64,000 bases of DNA, taken from NCBI GenBank assembly GCA_022822005.1, contig JAJECO010000046.1, positions 62,001-126,000 on the forward strand. The letters are read 5' to 3'. A program made the position numbers and the translations under genes. Source of the stretch: Candidatus Poribacteria bacterium (GTDB lineage Bacteria > Poribacteria > WGA-4E > PCPOR2b). Numbering within the stretch: the stretch's first letter is position 1; each line of letters opens with the position of its first letter. The notes below the pieces were generated by a model. It ran no database searches and had not been told where the DNA came from. It saw nothing but the letters and a program-made list of their open reading frames with translations. Positions 38,084 through 49,705 of this stretch are shown piece after piece.

Positions 38084-40591
38084 ATGGCAGATACAAAGAT
38101 TTTAATTGTTGAAGACACGAAGTCCGTTGCTGAAGACGTCGAAACACGCCTCAAAGAGTTAGAATATACTGTTTGCGCTGTGGTCCCAACTGGAGCACAA
38201 GCGGTTGAAAAAGCAGCAGAAATGCATCCCGATATAGTCTTCATCGATATAGAACTTGAAGGGGAAATAAACGGCATAGAAACTGCAGAACGTATACGTA
38301 ACTCCTTAGACATTCCGACCATATATCTGGCTAATTATCCAAACAAGGTTTTCTTGAGGAAAGAAAATGTATCAAAACGCGCAGAGATAACTAATCCGTT
38401 TGAGTATATCCCACAACCCTTTGGAAAAAGACGATTATACCTGACCATCGAAAGCGTTTTATCTAAGCATAGGATGGAAAAAGAATCCGAATCACACAAA
38501 CAGCATCTCACTACGATTCTCAGCGGTATTAGCGATGCTGGGGTTGCCACGAACAACAAGGGATTGATAACATTTATGAATCCGGTTGCCGAAACCTTGA
38601 CAGGTTGGGCAATGGAAGAAGTATCTGGAAAGCCCGTAACGGATATTCTCGATATTTATGTTGACAACGCAGGGGATCGTGAAAAAGACCCGTTTCTGAT
38701 GGGTGTATTTGAAAAAAGATCTGTTCACATCCGCGAATCATCGCCTGCTTCTGGGGTAGACTCTAATACTTACCTCATTGCCAAATCTGGTCGAGAGATC
38801 CCTATTGACTATAACATCACACCCATCAAAGACGAGGAAGAAGACCTCACCGGCATCGTTATAACTTTCCACGATATCACCAAGTATAAGAGGATGGAAG
38901 ATCAATTAAACCAAACGATCCGCAAGTTACGCCATCGAACCCAAGTGATGAAAACCGTTTTTGCTAGTATGCATGAGGGTATCGTCGTCATCGATTTAAG
39001 GGGTCGAGTATTGCTCGTCAATCCAAGTATAGAACAAATGCTTGGTACGGAGCCCCCGGGTCCATTCGCCAGCAGATGGGCTAAACAGTACGGTGTTTTT
39101 TATCCTGACAAAGAAACACGCGTTCCATTCGATCAGTTTCTCACGCATATCTCCCGGGGTGAGGAAATAAGGGACGAAGAGTTTTTTGTACGCAATAAGG
39201 AACAGCCGGAGGGAATTCATGTCAGGGGGAGTGGCATTCCCTTATTTGGTGCGAATCAGGAGGTTGTAGGCTGCGTGTGTGTTGTTCGCGACATCACGGA
39301 GGACAAAATAGCAGCAATACGGTTGGAACAGATGATGCAAGAACTACAAAATCAGGTTCAACTGACCGATACCATTTTTAATAGTATCAGTGATGGGGTA
39401 GTCGCTGCCGATGCAAATGGCACCTTTACAATTTTTAATCCAAGTGCCGAGAGAATTCTCGGAATTGGTCCAATAGATACAACCCCTGATGAATGGAGTG
39501 AGAACTACGGTTTCTTTTTCCCCGATAGAGTTACACCCTTCCCAGCAGAAGAACTCCCACTTGCACGGGCCCTTAGAGGTGAAGACTCAGATGAGGTAGA
39601 GATGTTTGTGCGAAACAGGGAAGTACCAGACGGCGTTTTTATCAGCGTCAGTGGGAGGCCACTACAGGCTGAAGAAGACAATGAGACAGGAGGTGTGATC
39701 GTGTTCCGCGATGTCACGCACCGAGTCGTCGCCGAAGAAGCGTTGACACAAGCGTTCGCACAAGGACGGCTGGAAATTGTCGAGACTATCCTCCACAATA
39801 TCGGTAACGCAATCAACAGCGTAACGGTAGGAATTGACGTACTCCAAAAGAATTTAGTTGGTAGTGAACTCCTGCACCACTTCTTTGCATTTGCTGATGT
39901 GGTTAAAACACATCAAGAGGATTGGGTTGATTACATCACACATGACCCGCAAGGACAGCAGGTGCTCCCAATTATAATCGCACTCGCTGCAGATTTTACC
40001 GATCGGAATAGAGAGGTGACCGAGACGCTTGAGCGTGTCAGTGAAAGAGTAACGCATATCAATGATATCATCCGTACGCAAAGGTCCTCTAATCAACCCA
40101 GTGTGACGTGGAAAACTGTCAACCTTCAGCAAACAATATTGAGTGCGGTGAAATTACAGCAAGAATCGATTGACAAAAGAGGCATCCAAGTACATGTCAA
40201 CTGCGAGAACGCGCCTCAAGAGATTCGGGTTCAAGAGAGTCAATTTCATCAAATGTTGGTGAATCTGGTCAAAAATTCAATTGAAGCCATCGATGAACGT
40301 ATTCAATCGGACGGACTCCGTGAAACCCCGCGCATCGAGGTCAAAACCTATATCAGTGACGATTTCGTCTGCCTTGATGTTACCGATAACGGCATCGGTA
40401 TTGCACAGAAAAACTTGAAGTTGATTTTCAGTGCTGGGTATACTACAAAGGAATCAGGAACCGGGCTGGGCCTCCATTCGAGCGCCAATTTTGTGATCGG
40501 GTCTGGCGGGAAAATTTATCCCTTAAGCGAGGGGATTGGCAAAGGCACAACCATGCGAATCATGCTGCGGTGCTCCTCAGTTATACCGTAG
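38084..40591 (+). CDS. Hybrid sensor histidine kinase: N-terminal REC, multiple PAS, HisKA-like, HATPase
   Basis: 'KILIVEDTKSVAEDVETRLKELEYTV...IVFIDIELEG'; PAS 'GVATNNKGLITFMNPVAETLTGW'; 'VETILHNIGNAINSV'; 'LDVTDNGIGIAQKNLKLIFSAGYTTKESGTGLGLHSS'. Confidence 0.93.
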   Translation: MADTKILIVEDTKSVAEDVETRLKELEYTVCAVVPTGAQAVEKAAEMHPDIVFIDIELEGEINGIETAERIRNSLDIPTIYLANYPNKVFLRKENVSKRAEITNPFEYIPQPFGKRRLYLTIESVLSKHRMEKESESHKQHLTTILSGISDAGVATNNKGLITFMNPVAETLTGWAMEEVSGKPVTDILDIYVDNAGDREKDPFLMGVFEKRSVHIRESSPASGVDSNTYLIAKSGREIPIDYNITPIKDEEEDLTGIVITFHDITKYKRMEDQLNQTIRKLRHRTQVMKTVFASMHEGIVVIDLRGRVLLVNPSIEQMLGTEPPGPFASRWAKQYGVFYPDKETRVPFDQFLTHISRGEEIRDEEFFVRNKEQPEGIHVRGSGIPLFGANQEVVGCVCVVRDITEDKIAAIRLEQMMQELQNQVQLTDTIFNSISDGVVAADANGTFTIFNPSAERILGIGPIDTTPDEWSENYGFFFPDRVTPFPAEELPLARALRGEDSDEVEMFVRNREVPDGVFISVSGRPLQAEEDNETGGVIVFRDVTHRVVAEEALTQAFAQGRLEIVETILHNIGNAINSVTVGIDVLQKNLVGSELLHHFFAFADVVKTHQEDWVDYITHDPQGQQVLPIIIALAADFTDRNREVTETLERVSERVTHINDIIRTQRSSNQPSVTWKTVNLQQTILSAVKLQQESIDKRGIQVHVNCENAPQEIRVQESQFHQMLVNLVKNSIEAIDERIQSDGLRETPRIEVKTYISDDFVCLDVTDNGIGIAQKNLKLIFSAGYTTKESGTGLGLHSSANFVIGSGGKIYPLSEGIGKGTTMRIMLRCSSVIP

Positions 40592-40926: not shown

Positions 40927-42849
40927 ATGGAATCAAAAGAACATTGGAATTATCGTGTTTTGATTGTTGATGATGAAGCCGGGATCCACAGCGACTTTAA
41001 GGATATGTTAAATCCCAGACATAGACAGACGTTAGCAGCCGCGTTAGTAGAAACCTTTCTTAACGAGGTTCCTGACAAGGTTCCAAAGAAGAAAACCGCC
41101 TTTCTGCCCAACTTTGAACTGTTGCATGCAACAAGTGGAGAGGAGGCGCACGATATTATATGTGCGGGAAAGGCAGCAAACCGTCCGATTGCGGTTGCAT
41201 ACATGGATGTCAGAATGCCACCGGGCATTGATGGGGTGGAAGCCATCCGTCGAATTAGACAGACCGAGAAGGATATTGAGCTAGTCATTATGACCGCTTA
41301 CACGGATAAACCCCTACCTGAGATTCTGCGCGATATGGAGCTGCTGAACAAACTGCTTTATATCCGAAAGCCTTTTGCGCCGGAGGAGGTTCAGCAGATT
41401 ACGCTTTCCCTCGTTGAGCGGTGGAACGTCGAACAAGAGTTAGCCAAGAAGCAACAGCAAATCATAACAGGTCATAAAAACCTCGAAACGGTACTTGATT
41501 CTGCGGAAGATGCGATCGGTATGTTCGACGACGAGGGACACCTGCTGTTTGCAAACCGATACTATCAACAGCTGTTTGATTTAACGGAAGACCAACTGAG
41601 ACAGATGTCGCCGGACGAACTCAAAGCACGTATGAAAGCGCGTTTCCAAAAGCCAAAACTATCGCAACAGGGAGCAGGAGCACATTCTGAAATTCTTGAA
41701 AACATAGTGGAAGCCGTTGGAGAAGCGGACCGGTCTGAACCGAGGTTGCTTTATCGCTCGATTACCCCGGTGGGGAATAATCAAGGCGATTCTGCTGGTA
41801 GCGTCGTCAGTTACCGTGATCTGTCCAAAGCGGTTGAGATTCAGCAGATGAAAGCGGAGGTCCACCGCATACGCACCGAACTTGAAGCGAGCTACTCCTT
41901 TGATGAAATTGTAGGCGAGAGTCAGATCATGCAGCAGATGTTCGCGTTGATGCAACAGGCAGCGGGAAGTGATATCACCGTCCTTATCTCAGGAGAAAGT
42001 GGGACTGGTAAAGAATTGGTCGCCCGTGCGATTCACTTTAATAGCCCTCGAAAAGCGGGACCCTTCGTTACAGTCAATTGCGCTGCTATACCTGAAACAC
42101 TCATTGAAAGCGAGTTGTTTGGTCATGAGCAGGGGGCTTTCACCGGTGCCACAGCGAAACGGATTGGCAAATTTGAACAAGCGAATCGAGGGACTATCTT
42201 TTTTGATGAAATTGGTGATATGCAGTGGGCTCTGCAAGTGAAATTGTTGCGTGTCCTCCAAGAACGGCAGATCCAGCGCGTCGGCGGCACAACCGATATC
42301 CCAATTGACATCCGGGTGCTAACAGCGACAAATCAGAATTTACAAGATGCAGTGGAAGCGGGTACTTTCCGAGAGGATCTGCTCTATCGAATTGCGGCTT
42401 TCCCAATCGTGGTTCCCCCGCTTAGGGACCGGCGTGAAGATATCCCACTCTTGGCGGACTATTTTCTGAAAAAATACGCTGAGAAAACGACGAAATCCAT
42501 TAAAGCGATTTCTGCCGATGCGTTACGGTTATTGATGCAGTATAACTTTCGCGGCAACGTGCGCCAACTTGAAAACATGATAGAACGCGCTGTTCTCCTT
42601 GAGACCACAAACCTGTTACAACCGGGTAATCTATCCCCACAGATTCTGTCAATGATGTCTTCCCAACCTATCCCATCTTCCCCTGACTCAACAGGAATCC
42701 TGCCGTTTGAAGAGGTCGAACGTCAAATACTTATCCACGCACTTAAAGTGATGGATAATAATATCACGAAGGCTGCCCAAGCCTTGAACATCGACCGATC
42801 AACCCTTTATCGGAAACTGAAGTTGTATAAACACTCCGTGTCGAACTAG
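40927..42849 (+). CDS. Sigma-54-dependent response regulator (REC-PAS-AAA+-Fis HTH)
   Basis: '[14 protein letters not shown]', Walker A 'GESGTGKE', 'GAFTGA' sigma-54 loop, C-terminal '[23 protein letters not shown]'. Confidence 0.96.
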
Positions 42850-43414
42850 GATCCCGAAGGGATCGCTTGAGACCGACTTGTCATTACTAGGACTTACGCA
42901 GTTAAACGGTCAAAGCCTCCGTTCCGATCCTGATCTTATCGGAGGAGCCTTCGACCTGTAGTTCGCCGATTCATCGCCGCCCCGATAGATCCCCGACGAA
43001 TCGGGACAGGCGGGCAACTACAACCTGATGAATCAGGCAACTACAATTGAAGTGAGTAAGTCCTGATTACGTGAAACATGAAAACAGGACAATGGAATCG
43101 TCTCGTTTGCTCGTCACGGCGTAATGTGCCAATGAGCGCTTCTTGACTACGGCAAAATACGACAGTTGTAATATTCTGCTGTAATATTCTGCGACAATCC
43201 CGTCCGCCTCCTGCATCGTTAGAGTCTTTCCGCTGATATTGTCCGATTTAATACTATCTTGCCTATCGCATTTTGCCACATTTTCAACCCACTTTCTATC
43301 ACGCTATCTGCCCGTCTGTATCCTTCCCCATATCCCTCAAAGCTAAGCTACCAAAGGATTTCTCTGTCTCTATAGAGTCTCTATAGAGCTGAACCCCCTC
43401 CTTCGACCAAGCAT

Positions 43415-43429
43415 TGGCACAGTTTATGC
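43415..43429 (+). promoter_or_regulatory. Candidate sigma-54 promoter TGGCAC-N5-ATGC
   Basis: tTGGCACagtttATGCt: one mismatch to TGGCAC-N5-TTGC with correct -24/-12 spacing. Confidence 0.5.
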
Positions 43430-43439
43430 TGTCCATATA

Positions 43440-43663
43440 TTTTCTTCTTTGATTCAGCCAACTTATGGGTGAGGTAACTATTCAATAGACCCCAATGCAG
43501 AAGCGTTGAAGTCTGCCCTTCAACGTTTGTGGCCTTGGTTGTCTCACCCGCCAATTATGCGAGGACAATGAGGGATTAGGCGTCCCGCATTATTTCAAGT
43601 ATGGGTTCCCAGTAGCGGGTCCTCCTAATACGGGGGGCACTCCATGGAGGAGGTGCCCCCTTT
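43440..43663 (+). ncRNA. Candidate structured noncoding RNA
   Basis: Outer stem GGGTGAGGTAAC (43467-43478)/GTTGTCTCACCC (43538-43549), inner hairpin CGTTGAAG/CTTCAACG (43504-43511/43518-43525), CCCGC/GCGGG stem (43584-43588/43615-43619), then intrinsic terminator. Confidence 0.5.
43633..43663 (+). terminator. Rho-independent terminator
   Basis: GGGGGCAC...GTGCCCCC 8-bp perfect stem followed by TTT. Confidence 0.7.
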
Positions 43664-43705
43664 AATAGGCTAACGTTTATCGCTCATGTTAAGAAAAAGT
43701 GCAAC

Positions 43706-43742
43706 AGAAACCGAGTTTTTTCGGCAAAACTCGGTTTCTCTT
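43706..43742 (+). terminator. AAACCGAG-type hairpin, second copy
   Basis: AGAAACCGAGTTTT ttcggc AAAACTCGGTTTCT; matches 32984-33017. Confidence 0.8.
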
Positions 43743-43877
43743 CGTGCTTTGCATTTTCTTTTTACATGAATCAAGACTTTTTCCATTTATACACCTTCAG
43801 CGATTATGTCGCACTGTTCTGAGTCATATCTTTTGAATTGTAACTGGTTTTTGGATGGGTCAGCCACTTTTTGGGTG

Positions 43878-43934
43878 CCCCTTTCGGGTTTGACTAACTT
43901 GACAGAGCTGGATCTTTATAACAACCCCATATAA
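43878..43934 (+). pseudogene. LRR gene fragment
   Basis: In-frame '(P)LSGLTNLTELDLYNNPI*', a single LRR unit with stop. Confidence 0.65.
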
Positions 43935-44149
43935 GACTTTCACACAGGAGGTGATAATCCTGAAATAAGAGGCAACTATGGAATGTCAACTGACCGAGTT
44001 GTATGCACACGGTGAGACCAACCATCATAACAGAATTGACTGCTATTGAAGTTTCTAGTATGCCGATTACCCCTCCATTCCGTAGTGAAGCATTTGTGTT
44101 CTTCACACATATTTCAAATCACTTGTCCAACCATAAAGGAGATAAATCT

Positions 44150-47100
44150 ATGACGAAACAACCCCTTCGCTTCACTTTATTCCTGTTAATATGTCTCTCA
44201 ATTCCATTAACGGCAACCGCACAAACAGTAGATATCCCCGACCCCAATCTCCGTGCTGCGGTTGAGGCGCAACTCGGCAAAGCGGCAGGGGACACCATCA
44301 CCACAGACGATATGGTGAATTTGACCGAACTTATCGCCCGTAATGCGAACATTAGTGATTTGACCGGGCTGGAACATGCAACCAACCTGACAGACCTGAG
44401 GCTTAGGGACAACAATATCTCAGACATATCGTCACTTTCGGGATTAAACAACCTGACAGCGCTGTGGCTTTCGGACAACAATATCTCGGACATCTCACCG
44501 GTGGCGGGATTAAACAACCTGACAGCGCTGATTCTTTGGAACAACAATATCTCAGACATATCGTCACTTTCGGGATTAAACAACCTGACAGCGCTGGATC
44601 TTTCGCTCAACAACATCTCAGACATATCGTCACTTTCGGGATTAAACAACCTGACAGTGCTGGGGCTTCCGGGCAACAGCATATCGGACATATCGCCACT
44701 TTCGGGATTAAACAGCCTGAGAAACCTGTATCTTCAGAACAACAACATTTCGGATATCTCACCGGTGGCGGGATTAAACAACCTGACATTGCTGAGTCTT
44801 GATGGCAACAACATCTCCGATATCTCACCGATAGCGGGATTAACCAATCTGGCATGGATGCGTCTTGCTGGGAACGATATCTCGGACCTCTCACCCTTGG
44901 CAGACAACATGGGATTGGGGGAAGGAGACCGGATTGATGTGCGAGACAACCCTCTGAACCGCACATCAATAGAGATCCACATCCCCGCACTCCAAGGCAG
45001 AGGGGTTACCGTTGAGTTTGACGATGTTATAACGGAATTGGTCGATATACCCGACCCGAACCTCCGCGCTGCAATTGAGGCGCAACTCGGCAAAGCCGCA
45101 GGTGACACCATCACCACCGCGGATATGGCGACTTTGACCCGTCTTGAAGCGGAGGAGGCAGGCATCAGCGATTTGACCGGGCTGGAACATGCAACCAACT
45201 TGGCATCCCTGAGTCTTGGGGACAACAACATATCGGATATATCACAGGTGAGGGGCTTAACGAATCTGACACGTCTAGGACTTCGAGTCAATACGCTATC
45301 GGACGTTTCGCCGGTGGCAGACCTGACAAATCTGACACGACTGGACCTTGTGGGTAACAATATCTCAGACGTGTCGGTTTTGGCGAACTTAACCAACTTG
45401 GAATCATTATTTCTTGACGGCAACCCCACCTCGGATATGTCGTCTTTGGCAGGATTAACCCAACTGACACGACTTGGGCTTGGGGGCAACAATATCTCTG
45501 ACATCTCACCTTTGGCGGACTTGACTGATTTGACGTGGCTGCGCCTTGGGGGCAACAATATCTCTGACATCTCACCTTTGGCGGACTTAACTGATTTGAC
45601 ATGGCTGCGCCTTGAGGACAATTATATCTCTGACATCTCGCCTTTGGCGGGATTAACTAGCCTGACAGAGCTATGGCTTTGGGGCAACAGTATCTCAGAA
45701 ATTTCGGCTTTAGCAGGCTTAACCAATTTGACACGCCTAAATCTTGCGGAGAACTCAATATCAGATATATCAGCTCTGGTGAACTTAACAAATCTGACAT
45801 ACCTAGAACTTCCATTCAACTCAATATCGGATCTCTCGCCCCTTGTAGCGAACACAGGTGTGGGCAGTGACGACGAGGTTGATGTGAGAGGCAACCCCCT
45901 GAACCGCGCATCAATAGAGACCCACATTCCCGCACTCCAAGGCAGAGGGGTTATGGTTGAGTTTGACGATGTTATAACGGAATTGGTCGATATCCCCGAC
46001 TCGAACCTCCACTCTGCGATTGCAGCGGCTCTGGGCAAAGCGGCAGGAAACGCAATCACCACAGATGATATGGCAAATTTGCGTCAGCTTTTCGCTATTG
46101 ACGTGAATATCAGCGATTTGACCGGACTTGAATTGGCAACCAACCTGACAGAGCTGGTTCTTATTAGAAACGCTATTAAGGACATCTCACCACTAGCAAA
46201 GTTGACCAATCTGACAAGTCTGCGTCTTAGTGCTAACACCATCACAGACATCTCACCGCTTGCAGGCTTGACCAATCTGACACTGCTATGGCTTAGTGAC
46301 AACAACATTTCTGATCTCTCACCGTTGACAGGCTTAACGAAACTGGAATCCCTCCTTGTTTCAGGCAACGGCATTGAGGACATCTCGCTTTTAGCCGGCT
46401 TAACCAACTTGGAAACGCTGGGGGTTAGAGACAACAACATCTCGGACATCTCGCCATTGGCGGGCTTAACCAACCTAGAAACACTGTGGCTCTACAACAA
46501 CGCCATCTCTGACCTGTCGCCGCTGGCGGGCTTAACCAACCTAAGATTCCTCTCGCTTCACACCAACCGGGTATTGTTCCTCTCGCCTTTGGTAGCAAAC
46601 ACGGGATTGGGAGTAGGTGACACGATCGAGTTGTGGGGAAATCCGCTAAACGAAGCATCTATCGGCACCCACATCCCCGCGCTCCGAGCCAGAGGGGTTG
46701 ACGTGGATCTCCGAACGCCGACCACCCTTGTGAAAATATCAGGGACGGTGACGGCGGAAAATAACCTGCTTATCGTTGAAGTCTGGGATGATCGAGCCCG
46801 TCCGGTGGAGGGGGTGCCGGTAACATTTACTGTCATCTCAGGCGGCGGGAAGCTCAGTGTAACAAGTGTAGCGACTGATGACCGTGGCAGGGCAGAGAGT
46901 CAGCTCACGTTGGGTCCCACTAAGGGAACGAACACGGTTCACGCGACTGTTGAAGGCATTTCGGAACCTGCGGTCTTTAGCGATGTGCCGGAGCCTGCGG
47001 TCCGTATTCCCGATCACAACCTCCGCGCTGCGATTGAGGCGGAGCTCAGGGTGACACCGGGTAGCACACTCACTGCGTCGAATATGGCGAGGTTGACCGA

Positions 47101-49705
47101 TATTTCCGCCCGTAATGCTAACATCAGTGATTTGACCGGGCTTGAGACTGCAATCAATCTGACATGGCTGGATCTGGGTTCTGAGTATGTGGAGGCAGAG
47201 GGACGTTCCATTAACAGCAACTCAGTATCAGACCTCTCGCCCCTTGCAGGATTAACCAACCTGACATTTCTGGGGCTTTCGGATAACAGCATCTCGGATA
47301 TCTCACCGGTGGCGGAATTAAACAACCTGACATCGCTGAGTCTCGGGAACAACAACATTTCCGATATCTCACCGGTGGCGGGATTGAACAACCTGACATC
47401 GCTGTTGCTTTGGGATAACAGCATCTCGGACATATCGCCTTTGGTAGCCAATACGGGATTGGGAGAGGAAGACTTGGTTTTTGTGACGGGAAATCCCTTG
47501 AGTTACCTATCCCTCTACACACACATTCCCGCACTCCAAAGCAGAGGCGTTACGGTGGTTTTTGACCGTCCTGTGGAAACGCTCTCAGGGCATACAGACG
47601 GAGTTGTCAGCATCGCCTTCAGTCCGGATGGCAGTATATTAGCAAGTGGCAGTGCGGACAACACGGTGCAACTGTGGGATACCGTCACGGAGTTGCCCAT
47701 AGCCACACTCATAGGGCATACCGCCATGGCAAGAAGCGTTGCATTCAGTCCGGATGGCAGCATACTTGCCAGTGGGGGACACGATGGCACGGTGCGGCTG
47801 TGGGATGTTGCTACCAGAACCCCGATAGACATACTCCTAGGGCATACTGATGGTGTTGAGAGTGTTGTGTTCAGTCCGGATGGCAACACGCTCGCTAGTG
47901 GAGGGCGCGACAGCACGGTGCGATCATGGAATCCCGTTACGGGACAACCTATAGAGATACTCCTGGCCGGTTCAGCCCTAGGCACAGTCTGGAGCGTCGC
48001 ATATAGTCCGGATGGCAATACCATTGCCATTGGGCTTGGCAACGGCGCGATACTGCTGGGTGACGTTGCCAACGGACTCCCTAAAGGTTACCTCACAGGG
48101 CATACCGGCCATGTTGAGAGTGTTGCATTCAACCGGGATGGCACTATGTTAGCAAGTGGAAGTGGAGATAACACGGTGCGCCTGTGGGATGCCATCACAG
48201 GAGACCCCATAGACACACTCACAGGGCATGCGGCGGGTATCAATAGTGTTGCGTTCAGCCCGGATGGCACCATCCTCGCCAGCGGGAGTGATGACCAAAC
48301 GGTGCGCCTGTGGGATGCCATCACAGGAGACCCCATAGATACACTCAGGGGGCATACGTCCTGGGTCAGGAGTGTTGCGTTCAACCGGGATGGCAGCGTG
48401 TTGGCAAGTGGCAGTGGAGATAGCACGATCCGCCTGTGGGAACTCGCACCACCTACTACTATAGAATACACCCTGTCGATACCAGCGGGCATCAGTCTGA
48501 TTCATGTGCCATTGAAGGTAACAGAGGTTGACGGAACAGCACAGACCATCGAATCGGTCGGCGACCTCTACGACGTCCTCGGTGGCGCGAGTGTCGTCAA
48601 TTTCCTCATCACCTACGACTCACAAACACAAGAATGGCGCAGCTTTTTCGTCTCTTCGGACAAAGGCACTCCCGCGGATGCGGCATTGACCGACGACATA
48701 GGAATTATAGCCGGTCTGAGAGTACCAGTATCGGTTCAACTCAGCGGTGATCCGCTAGGGACAAATGGAAGCAGCACCATCAGCTTGAGCCAAGGACTCA
48801 ACGTTGTGGGACTGCCGTTAAGAGATCCCACAATAGAGCGTGTCAGCGACCTGTTCACGCTTGACGGGATTGGCGGCAACGTCCCTGTGATTATCCTCAC
48901 CGATGGCGGAGAATTCAAGTTGGTCGGACGCGCGGGTGACCCCGGTGATATAGAAATCACCGGCGGACAAGCCTTTATCATGAACGCTTCACGAGAAGCG
49001 ATGGTTGAGATCTCTGGCGATCCGTGGGCTAACTCTCCAGAAATGGCTGCCGCCCCACTGTTGGCACTGACAGGTATCGAAGTGGGGAATACCACCCCTG
49101 TTTTGGGATTGAGAGGCTCAATTGTTGACGAAGGAACGGGCTTAAAGGTGCCAAACTTCCGGGTAACCGTCAAGAACCTATCAACCCGCAGGGCAGTCGC
49201 CACTGTCACAGCACCCGATGGGGCAGGTTATCGGTCCACCGTCGTTGACATAGAAACAGGACGTGCAGCTACGGTTGGGGATGTCCTCGAAATTTCTGCG
49301 CAATCGACTAATCCGTTTATCGGTGTAAAGCCGTTGCGGTATACAGTCACGGCTGAAGATGTGAAGCAAAGCCTGATTCAGTTACCAGAACTGGTTGCCT
49401 ACGAGATACCGGCGGAGACGGAATTGCTGCCCAACTATCCGAATCCGTTCAACCCAGAGACGTGGATTCCCTATCGGTTGGCGGAGGACGCTTTCGTCAC
49501 CTTGGCCATCTACGACTTAGGCGGTCAGGTCATCCGTACACTCGACGTGGGACATCAGGTCGCGGCGGTCTACGAGAATCGGTCAAAAGCAATCTACTGG
49601 GATGGCAGAAACGAGGTCGGTGAGGGGGTGGCAAGTGGTGTGTATTTTTACCACCTGTCCGCAGGGGACTATTCCGCCACGCGGAAGATGTTGATTATCA
49701 AGTAA
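44150..49705 (+). CDS. Giant secreted LRR - Ig-like - LRR - WD40 protein with T9SS-like C-terminal domain
   Basis: Signal 'MTKQPLRFTLFLLICLSIPLTATAQ'; dozens of 22-aa LRRs; 'VEGVPVTFTVISGGGKLS' Big_1-like; WD40 'VAFSPDGSILASGSADNTVQLWD'; C-terminus 'LLPNYPNPFNPETWIPYRLAEDAF...KMLIIK'. Confidence 0.93.
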   Translation: MTKQPLRFTLFLLICLSIPLTATAQTVDIPDPNLRAAVEAQLGKAAGDTITTDDMVNLTELIARNANISDLTGLEHATNLTDLRLRDNNISDISSLSGLNNLTALWLSDNNISDISPVAGLNNLTALILWNNNISDISSLSGLNNLTALDLSLNNISDISSLSGLNNLTVLGLPGNSISDISPLSGLNSLRNLYLQNNNISDISPVAGLNNLTLLSLDGNNISDISPIAGLTNLAWMRLAGNDISDLSPLADNMGLGEGDRIDVRDNPLNRTSIEIHIPALQGRGVTVEFDDVITELVDIPDPNLRAAIEAQLGKAAGDTITTADMATLTRLEAEEAGISDLTGLEHATNLASLSLGDNNISDISQVRGLTNLTRLGLRVNTLSDVSPVADLTNLTRLDLVGNNISDVSVLANLTNLESLFLDGNPTSDMSSLAGLTQLTRLGLGGNNISDISPLADLTDLTWLRLGGNNISDISPLADLTDLTWLRLEDNYISDISPLAGLTSLTELWLWGNSISEISALAGLTNLTRLNLAENSISDISALVNLTNLTYLELPFNSISDLSPLVANTGVGSDDEVDVRGNPLNRASIETHIPALQGRGVMVEFDDVITELVDIPDSNLHSAIAAALGKAAGNAITTDDMANLRQLFAIDVNISDLTGLELATNLTELVLIRNAIKDISPLAKLTNLTSLRLSANTITDISPLAGLTNLTLLWLSDNNISDLSPLTGLTKLESLLVSGNGIEDISLLAGLTNLETLGVRDNNISDISPLAGLTNLETLWLYNNAISDLSPLAGLTNLRFLSLHTNRVLFLSPLVANTGLGVGDTIELWGNPLNEASIGTHIPALRARGVDVDLRTPTTLVKISGTVTAENNLLIVEVWDDRARPVEGVPVTFTVISGGGKLSVTSVATDDRGRAESQLTLGPTKGTNTVHATVEGISEPAVFSDVPEPAVRIPDHNLRAAIEAELRVTPGSTLTASNMARLTDISARNANISDLTGLETAINLTWLDLGSEYVEAEGRSINSNSVSDLSPLAGLTNLTFLGLSDNSISDISPVAELNNLTSLSLGNNNISDISPVAGLNNLTSLLLWDNSISDISPLVANTGLGEEDLVFVTGNPLSYLSLYTHIPALQSRGVTVVFDRPVETLSGHTDGVVSIAFSPDGSILASGSADNTVQLWDTVTELPIATLIGHTAMARSVAFSPDGSILASGGHDGTVRLWDVATRTPIDILLGHTDGVESVVFSPDGNTLASGGRDSTVRSWNPVTGQPIEILLAGSALGTVWSVAYSPDGNTIAIGLGNGAILLGDVANGLPKGYLTGHTGHVESVAFNRDGTMLASGSGDNTVRLWDAITGDPIDTLTGHAAGINSVAFSPDGTILASGSDDQTVRLWDAITGDPIDTLRGHTSWVRSVAFNRDGSVLASGSGDSTIRLWELAPPTTIEYTLSIPAGISLIHVPLKVTEVDGTAQTIESVGDLYDVLGGASVVNFLITYDSQTQEWRSFFVSSDKGTPADAALTDDIGIIAGLRVPVSVQLSGDPLGTNGSSTISLSQGLNVVGLPLRDPTIERVSDLFTLDGIGGNVPVIILTDGGEFKLVGRAGDPGDIEITGGQAFIMNASREAMVEISGDPWANSPEMAAAPLLALTGIEVGNTTPVLGLRGSIVDEGTGLKVPNFRVTVKNLSTRRAVATVTAPDGAGYRSTVVDIETGRAATVGDVLEISAQSTNPFIGVKPLRYTVTAEDVKQSLIQLPELVAYEIPAETELLPNYPNPFNPETWIPYRLAEDAFVTLAIYDLGGQVIRTLDVGHQVAAVYENRSKAIYWDGRNEVGEGVASGVYFYHLSAGDYSATRKMLIIK

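Follow-up and report, generated by a model that had tools for sequence, protein, structure and literature searches.

What does the non-coding DNA between a sigma-54 activator gene and a giant LRR gene specify in a genome of Candidatus Poribacteria, and is it controlled by the neighbouring regulator? The window analysed here is a stretch of 64,000 nucleotides of that genome (G000). An initial annotation had placed in this interval a structured RNA behind a sigma-54-like TGGCAC-N5-ATGC element and had suggested that the adjacent kinase and regulator drive it. Poribacteria are known chiefly as marine sponge symbionts. The phylum is rich in LRR and WD40 proteins, and an action toward the host has been suggested for eukaryote-like repeat proteins (PMC3909097). 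The features of the locus are as follows; G003 is the sister species used for comparison.

38084-40591, + strand: hybrid sensor kinase (receiver, three PAS and HATPase domains, Pfam), the first gene of the unit
40927-42849, + strand: NtrC-type response regulator/sigma-54 activator (receiver, PAS, Sigma54_activat (AAA+) and HTH_8 (Fis-type HTH) domains, Pfam)
42889-43064, strand not assigned: MITE-like insertion downstream of the regulator gene and upstream of the enhancer sites, with terminal inverted repeat AGGACTTACGCAGTT...AGTAAGTCCT; missing from G003
43148-43164, + strand: enhancer-like palindrome 1, TACGGCAAAATACGACA (consensus TGTCGCAAAATGCGAYA), from alignment; degenerate here
43180-43196, + strand: enhancer-like palindrome 2, TGTAATATTCTGCGACA, from alignment; 13 nt tandemly duplicated at 43167-43179
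43264-43280, + strand: enhancer-like palindrome 3, TATCGCATTTTGCCACA (consensus TGTCGCATTTTGCGACA), from alignment
43317-43361, + strand: conserved box ATCCTT...TCAAAG.TAAGC..CCAAAGGATT upstream of the promoter, from alignment
43414-43430, + strand: sigma-54 promoter TTGGCAC-N5-ATGCT (-24/-12), TTGGCACAGTTTATGCT, conserved in relatives
43440-43663, + strand: putative structured non-coding RNA of ~224 nt, its start predicted from the -12 position
43467-43549, + strand: 5′ hairpin domain, with a 12-bp outer stem (43467-43478/43538-43549) and an inner hairpin (43504-43511/43518-43525)
43570-43631, + strand: element B, with an AUUAGG/CCUAAU stem, a CCCGC/GCGGG stem and a conserved GUAUGGnGUCC-type apical loop (seven loci, model R2, covariation)
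43632-43663, + strand: intrinsic terminator of element B, with a 9-bp G+C stem GGGGGGCAC/GUGCCCCC at 43632-43660
~43678-43772, strand not assigned: insertion 3′ of the terminator, GCTCATGTTAAGAA...TTTTTACATGA; missing from G003
44150-49705, + strand: giant LRR and WD40 protein (Pfam) with a signal-peptide-like start

The sigma-54 promoter and its probable regulator

The element proposed in the initial annotation was found in place as the box TTGGCACAGTTTATGCT, the sole match to YTGGCAYN5WTGCW in the window, where 0.21 matches were expected from shuffling. It carries the -24 GG and -12 GC of a sigma-54 promoter in a YTGGCAYRN4TTGCW-type context, with ATGC and not TTGC at -12. The lone consensus match in 64 kb is weak evidence by itself, and a chance match of this kind turned up in 19 of 100 shuffled windows. 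That figure is what speaks for the reading that the box arose by chance and that the RNA, if any, comes from another promoter; against it stands the recurrence of the box at the equivalent position downstream of homologous regulators in many genomes, other phyla included, so that this reading is very improbable and, as far as sequence comparison goes, largely refuted.

Homologues of the regulator were found in 22 of 86 genomes of the phylum. A strict sigma-54 box lay within 650 nt downstream in 25 of 31 homologous regulator genes, a set that includes MAGs of Latescibacterota, Acidobacteria/Terriglobia and Gemmatimonadota besides Poribacteria; the background was 0.029 per 650 nt over 464 kb scanned, true sites included. 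When up to one mismatch was allowed, the box was found in 27 of 40 related genomes, some of these being chance matches inside genes. In many relatives, boxes of the type TTGGCACRGTTTATGC share an upstream module, and in ~25 copies the shared module is long and comprises, in order, three TGTCGCAwTTTGCGACA-type palindromes, the box ATCCTTCAAAGATAAGCCTATCAAAGGAT and the -24/-12 elements. In most copies an NtrC-type regulator gene ends 300-480 nt before the promoter; in the window the non-coding DNA between the two measures 564 nt because of the insertion at 42889-43064. The kinase orthologue in G003 likewise lies upstream of a matching sigma-54 promoter. RpoN is encoded in G000 (PF04552, E = 5.7e-57). 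Judged on these comparisons, the promoter at 43414-43430 is real and the regulator–promoter arrangement has been kept across many relatives, in Poribacteria and in MAGs of other phyla, which supports the proposed link between the regulator and this promoter. Several genomes of the group carry a second, divergent RpoN alongside the normal one (G000:C20:136426, ~454 aa).

The domain content of the gene ending at 42849 agrees with its annotation as a sigma-54 activator. Neither the three palindromic enhancer-like sites between this gene and the promoter nor the two insertions that flank the RNA had been mentioned in the initial annotation. In relatives, the regulator-to-promoter DNA usually contains such palindromes; in the window copy all three are degenerate, which counts against the explanation favoured below. 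Within the close clade, the palindromes follow the recognition helix of the adjoining regulator. With the helix IDRST, half-sites are TGTCGCA or TGTAGTA and the right half is TTTTGC-; with MSRST, MARST, MAQST, IGRST or IARST, the palindromes carry TGTCCCA or TGTCTCA and the right half is TTTTGG- or ATGA-. The letter after the central TG is C with IDRST (e.g. TTTTGCGACA) and G or A with the A/S/G/AQ variants (e.g. TTTTGGGACA). The correspondence held in seven versus five lineages with zero exceptions (Fisher p = 0.0013), a value that is only indicative, since sites and helices were matched by eye in lineages that are related to one another. These results suggest that the adjoining regulator is likely the activator of the promoter, acting at the predicted sites.

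The putative structured RNA and its 3′ module

The stems described in the initial annotation pair as it had proposed. In the outer stem, GGGTGAGGTAAC at 43467-43478 pairs fully, G-U pairs included, with GTTGTCTCACCC at 43538-43549, and in the inner hairpin CGTTGAAG pairs with CTTCAACG. The CCCGC/GCGGG stem is present too, nested in the AUUAGG/CCUAAU stem at ~43573-43629. The terminator had been placed at 43633-43663; its stem is followed by a U tract of only three U (43661-43663), and this shortness counts against the favoured explanation. The predicted fold of 43438-43667 has a free energy of -81.5 kcal/mol (z = -2.94), none of 200 shuffled sequences folding equally well, and z-scores across four copies range from -2.9 to -4.2.

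No ORF of at least 60 aa overlaps 43280-43893, in agreement with the earlier reading that no good ORF covers the region. Stop-free stretches inside the RNA reach 51 codons at most, and G003 carries an 8-nt insertion that makes a common reading frame impossible. A conserved small protein inside the RNA was ruled out on these two grounds.

Searches with the covariance models of Rfam 15 gave no hit in the window at the gathering score, and 6S, tmRNA, SRP, RNase P and the riboswitch classes all stayed under their family cut-offs. Under permissive thresholds the best match in 43300-43800 had E = 1.6, far under the cut-off. The initial annotation had recognised none of the first four families, and this assessment holds even at permissive thresholds.

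With the RNA as query, a full-length counterpart was found only in G003, at the same place between regulator and LRR gene; the full RNA of the window thus has one known close relative, which also counts against the favoured explanation. The 3′ half recurs in G004 and in a paralogous cassette of the same genome (contig C38), and in G003 and in the C38 paralogue an LRR gene again lies 3′ of the RNA. Over the RNA, identity to G003 is 86.9%; in the kinase and regulator genes, four-fold-degenerate sites reach 74% (p = 9e-5). The difference supports the RNA without being decisive, because the stretch after the terminator and the one just before the LRR start are well conserved too, and conservation by itself therefore does not set the RNA apart. 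All 12 pairs of the outer stem are kept in G003, with one compensatory change (G-C to A-U) and two one-sided changes.

The 3′ half at 43570-43663 is, on comparison of its copies, a portable and separable stem-plus-terminator module. A covariance model of element B was built on four copies, and the search added three lower-scoring ones (E = 0.002, 0.003 and 0.058) with the same architecture and other stem letters, e.g. UUACC/GGUAA for CCCGC/GCGGG. In the alignment of all seven, 95.9% of cells are paired and nine show changes on both sides; this count favours the structure, since four of these copies supplied the structure to which the alignment was fitted. None of 500 shuffles reached the count, slid controls were far lower, and a manual count was also made. 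The three added copies are not beside a sigma-54 promoter: one lies in the interval between a STAS and an LRR gene, another follows a STAS gene and the third is 570 nt before another gene. The copy at G002:C68 was considered as a further sigma-54 copy and rejected, since its box is TTGACA-N18-TACAAT, a sigma-70 promoter; element B therefore occurs there without a sigma-54 promoter. A same-strand gene follows element B at all seven loci, ~170-650 nt away, and at five of them it is an LRR or TPR gene. Because element B stands directly after a gene in two cases, it may be a mere 3′-end terminator.

These comparisons also bear on the possibility that the region is an ordinary long 5′ UTR with a leftover terminator, in which the promoter drives the LRR gene and the folded segment, without regulatory function, is what remains of a lost TPR gene operon. 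The short ORF at 43979-44050 (MECQLTELYAHGETNHHNRIDCY) is conserved in G003, stop included; it resembles the N-terminus of a TPR gene, left as a remnant here but intact in the cassettes of G004. Insertions have also accumulated on both sides of the RNA. Against this explanation stand the conservation of the RNA, which exceeds that of four-fold sites, its covariation and the presence of element B at seven loci in varied gene contexts, and we consider it improbable. A relative of the insertion at 43678-43772 is present at G003:C24:54300.

The initial annotation had made its proposal depend on conservation and covariation in relatives and on the Rfam result: the region proved conserved, its stems covary, and no known family was matched. 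The order of regulator gene, enhancer-like sites, sigma-54 promoter, structured non-coding stretch and terminator is shown by comparison, as a predicted arrangement. Taken together, the promoter family, the conservation, the covariation and the presence of RpoN support well a sigma-54, regulator-driven, terminated RNA, and such an RNA as such is highly probable at this locus.

Possible action in cis or in trans

How such an RNA would act is less certain. In the mechanism that we propose, the phosphorylated regulator would bind the enhancer sites and contact sigma-54 polymerase at 43414-43430; transcription would start near 43440 and mostly end at ~43663, and the RNA would fold into the 5′ hairpin domain and the element-B/terminator module. 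With less certainty, the module would set transcription read-through into the LRR gene, and the RNA would therefore be a leader gating a surface repeat protein in cis. Once terminated, the 224-nt RNA may also be active in its own right. To this full account, in which a self-contained signalling unit has the RNA as its output node and the cis gating of the LRR gene is included, we assign a probability of about 0.5.

A stand-alone trans-acting sRNA, made by the regulator from the sigma-54 promoter, released at the terminator and either pairing with distant mRNAs or sequestering a protein in the manner of CrcZ, GlmY or Qrr, would fit the strong terminator stem, the stable fold and the lack of an ORF. 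The layout is that of CbrAB-CrcZ, where crcZ forms its own transcription unit downstream of cbrAB (PMC8871633), and sigma-54 sRNAs controlled by a regulator are an established class (PMC7073468; PMC10162802). However, the usual protein partners were not detected. Hfq (PF17209) was below the cut-off in all 14 genomes, with none in G000, and CsrA (PF02599), which a CsrB/RsmZ-type decoy would sequester, was absent in G000-G006; control genomes were positive for both. A mechanism based on Hfq or CsrA was accordingly rejected for this genome, and the classical trans-sRNA reading is weakened. No repeated target motif was identified either, and the units driven by this promoter at many sister loci are protein-coding. 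A stand-alone trans-acting RNA is less likely than the favoured account, if more credible than operon debris.

A cis role is slightly favoured over a trans role. A slight pointer in this direction comes from the 3′ module, which precedes a same-strand gene at every one of its loci and recurs away from sigma-54 promoters; that many other promoters of the family lead straight to genes was also counted in favour. Counted against a cis role were the distance of ~170-580 nt from the module to the next ORF, far for a typical attenuator, and the inspection of predicted folds, in which no competing antiterminator was apparent.

Known systems and related cassettes

The closest parallel is CbrAB-CrcZ/CrcY of Pseudomonas, in which an NtrC-type activator gene likewise lies directly upstream of a sigma-54 promoter making a structured non-coding RNA, and in which there are likewise three activator subsites. 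The CbrB subsites are reported to be non-palindromic (PMC6296734), whereas those of the window are palindromes; CrcZ antagonises Hfq/Crc repression, whereas Hfq was not detected here; and the RNAs are unrelated in sequence, judging from the absence of any Rfam match. By analogy, the unit in the window would work like CbrAB-CrcZ but is not a member of that family on the features compared, having no match to any Rfam model and no Hfq above the cut-off.

Regulated sigma-54 RNAs have been described mostly in Proteobacteria, and Qrr RNAs pair with mRNAs through Hfq. The LuxO/SypG-Qrr1 system of Vibrio resembles the window in that a regulatory RNA of a host symbiont is transcribed from a sigma-54 promoter in dependence on an enhancer-binding protein (PMC10162802), but the length, fold and neighbours of the RNA differ. 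QseEF (GlrKR)-GlmY of Enterobacteria shares an sRNA with a sigma-54 promoter under a two-component system; GlmY, however, is a RapZ decoy (PMC7073468), nothing in the window points to RapZ, and sequence and structure differ. Terminator-type cis leaders (riboswitches and attenuators) share the conserved stem and apical loop that abut an intrinsic terminator ahead of a gene on the same strand, and a conserved, covarying structure of this kind was found here. The window differs from them in that no antiterminator, known ligand or protein, or Rfam family was found and in that the gene is distant. Searching the open literature on Poribacteria with sigma-54 or small RNA yielded nothing relevant.

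If the proposed account is true, sigma-54 regulated RNAs extend to a distant phylum, probably without Hfq, and an uncultivated phylum of sponge symbionts gains a signalling-to-RNA circuit with a readable DNA code, from which the regulon could be listed from the promoters alone. At least one structured RNA module new to Rfam would also stand before LRR proteins for which contact with the host has been proposed.

Most other cassettes have a different module, A, behind the promoter. It forms a long hairpin, and the bulge on its 5′ side base-pairs with the loop of the hairpin that comes after it (GGCGA/UCGCC, GUCCA/UGGAC, GACGA/UCGUC). In this pseudoknot helix 100% of cells are paired and two positions are changed on both sides; module A belongs to no Rfam family. 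Because the window copy lacks it, module A is context and not part of the finding. The module A cassettes show that the promoter family repeatedly drives predicted structured RNA leaders.

Weaker matches to the module A model (20-39 bits; L248, L249, L247, L267, L260, L265 and L268, ~1501-1616) lie, at least in the cases checked, upstream of TnpB (OrfB_IS605) genes. They keep the bulge–loop pseudoknot with other letters (e.g. GTTCGA/TCGAAC, GTACGA/TCGTAC, AGACGA/TCGTCT) and had no match in Rfam.

The same type of sigma-54 promoter, with three enhancers, was also observed at G000:C77:121819 (L117:2820). It has a cas_NE0113 (Csm6-type ring nuclease) gene on one side, a type III-A operon encoding Csm1/Cas10, Csm3 and Csm4 on the other, and no adjoining regulator gene. 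Apparently, this CRISPR operon belongs to a two-component sigma-54 regulon. A more tentative proposal, which we hold with less confidence than the full account for the window, is that Poribacteria have several insulated kinase–activator–enhancer–sigma-54–RNA cassettes, each with its own co-evolved enhancer code, and that their RNAs (terminator-coupled module B and, in sister copies, pseudoknotted module A shared with TnpB leaders) would constitute new families of regulatory RNA, with control over LRR-type surface proteins and, via the same promoter type, a CRISPR operon.

A further motif, CTTATGGCRGTTRG, forms a hairpin (CTTATGGCAGTTGG...CCAACTGCC) and recurs in the intergenic regions of these operons (L109, L110, L118 and L193); wherever loci were read, the strand carrying it was the transcribed one. 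That it is a general genome repeat was considered and rejected, as it occurs 13 times in 14 genomes, mostly at cassette loci, and hardly at all elsewhere; it is also found before genes far from the promoter. Finally, a second promoter subfamily with CTGTCACATTTTGAAACG enhancers, at G000:C58:234593 and in orthologues in G001-G005 and G008, drives a conserved protein-coding gene whose product starts MNQTNQPMALTRPIDYIHTVQEAL.
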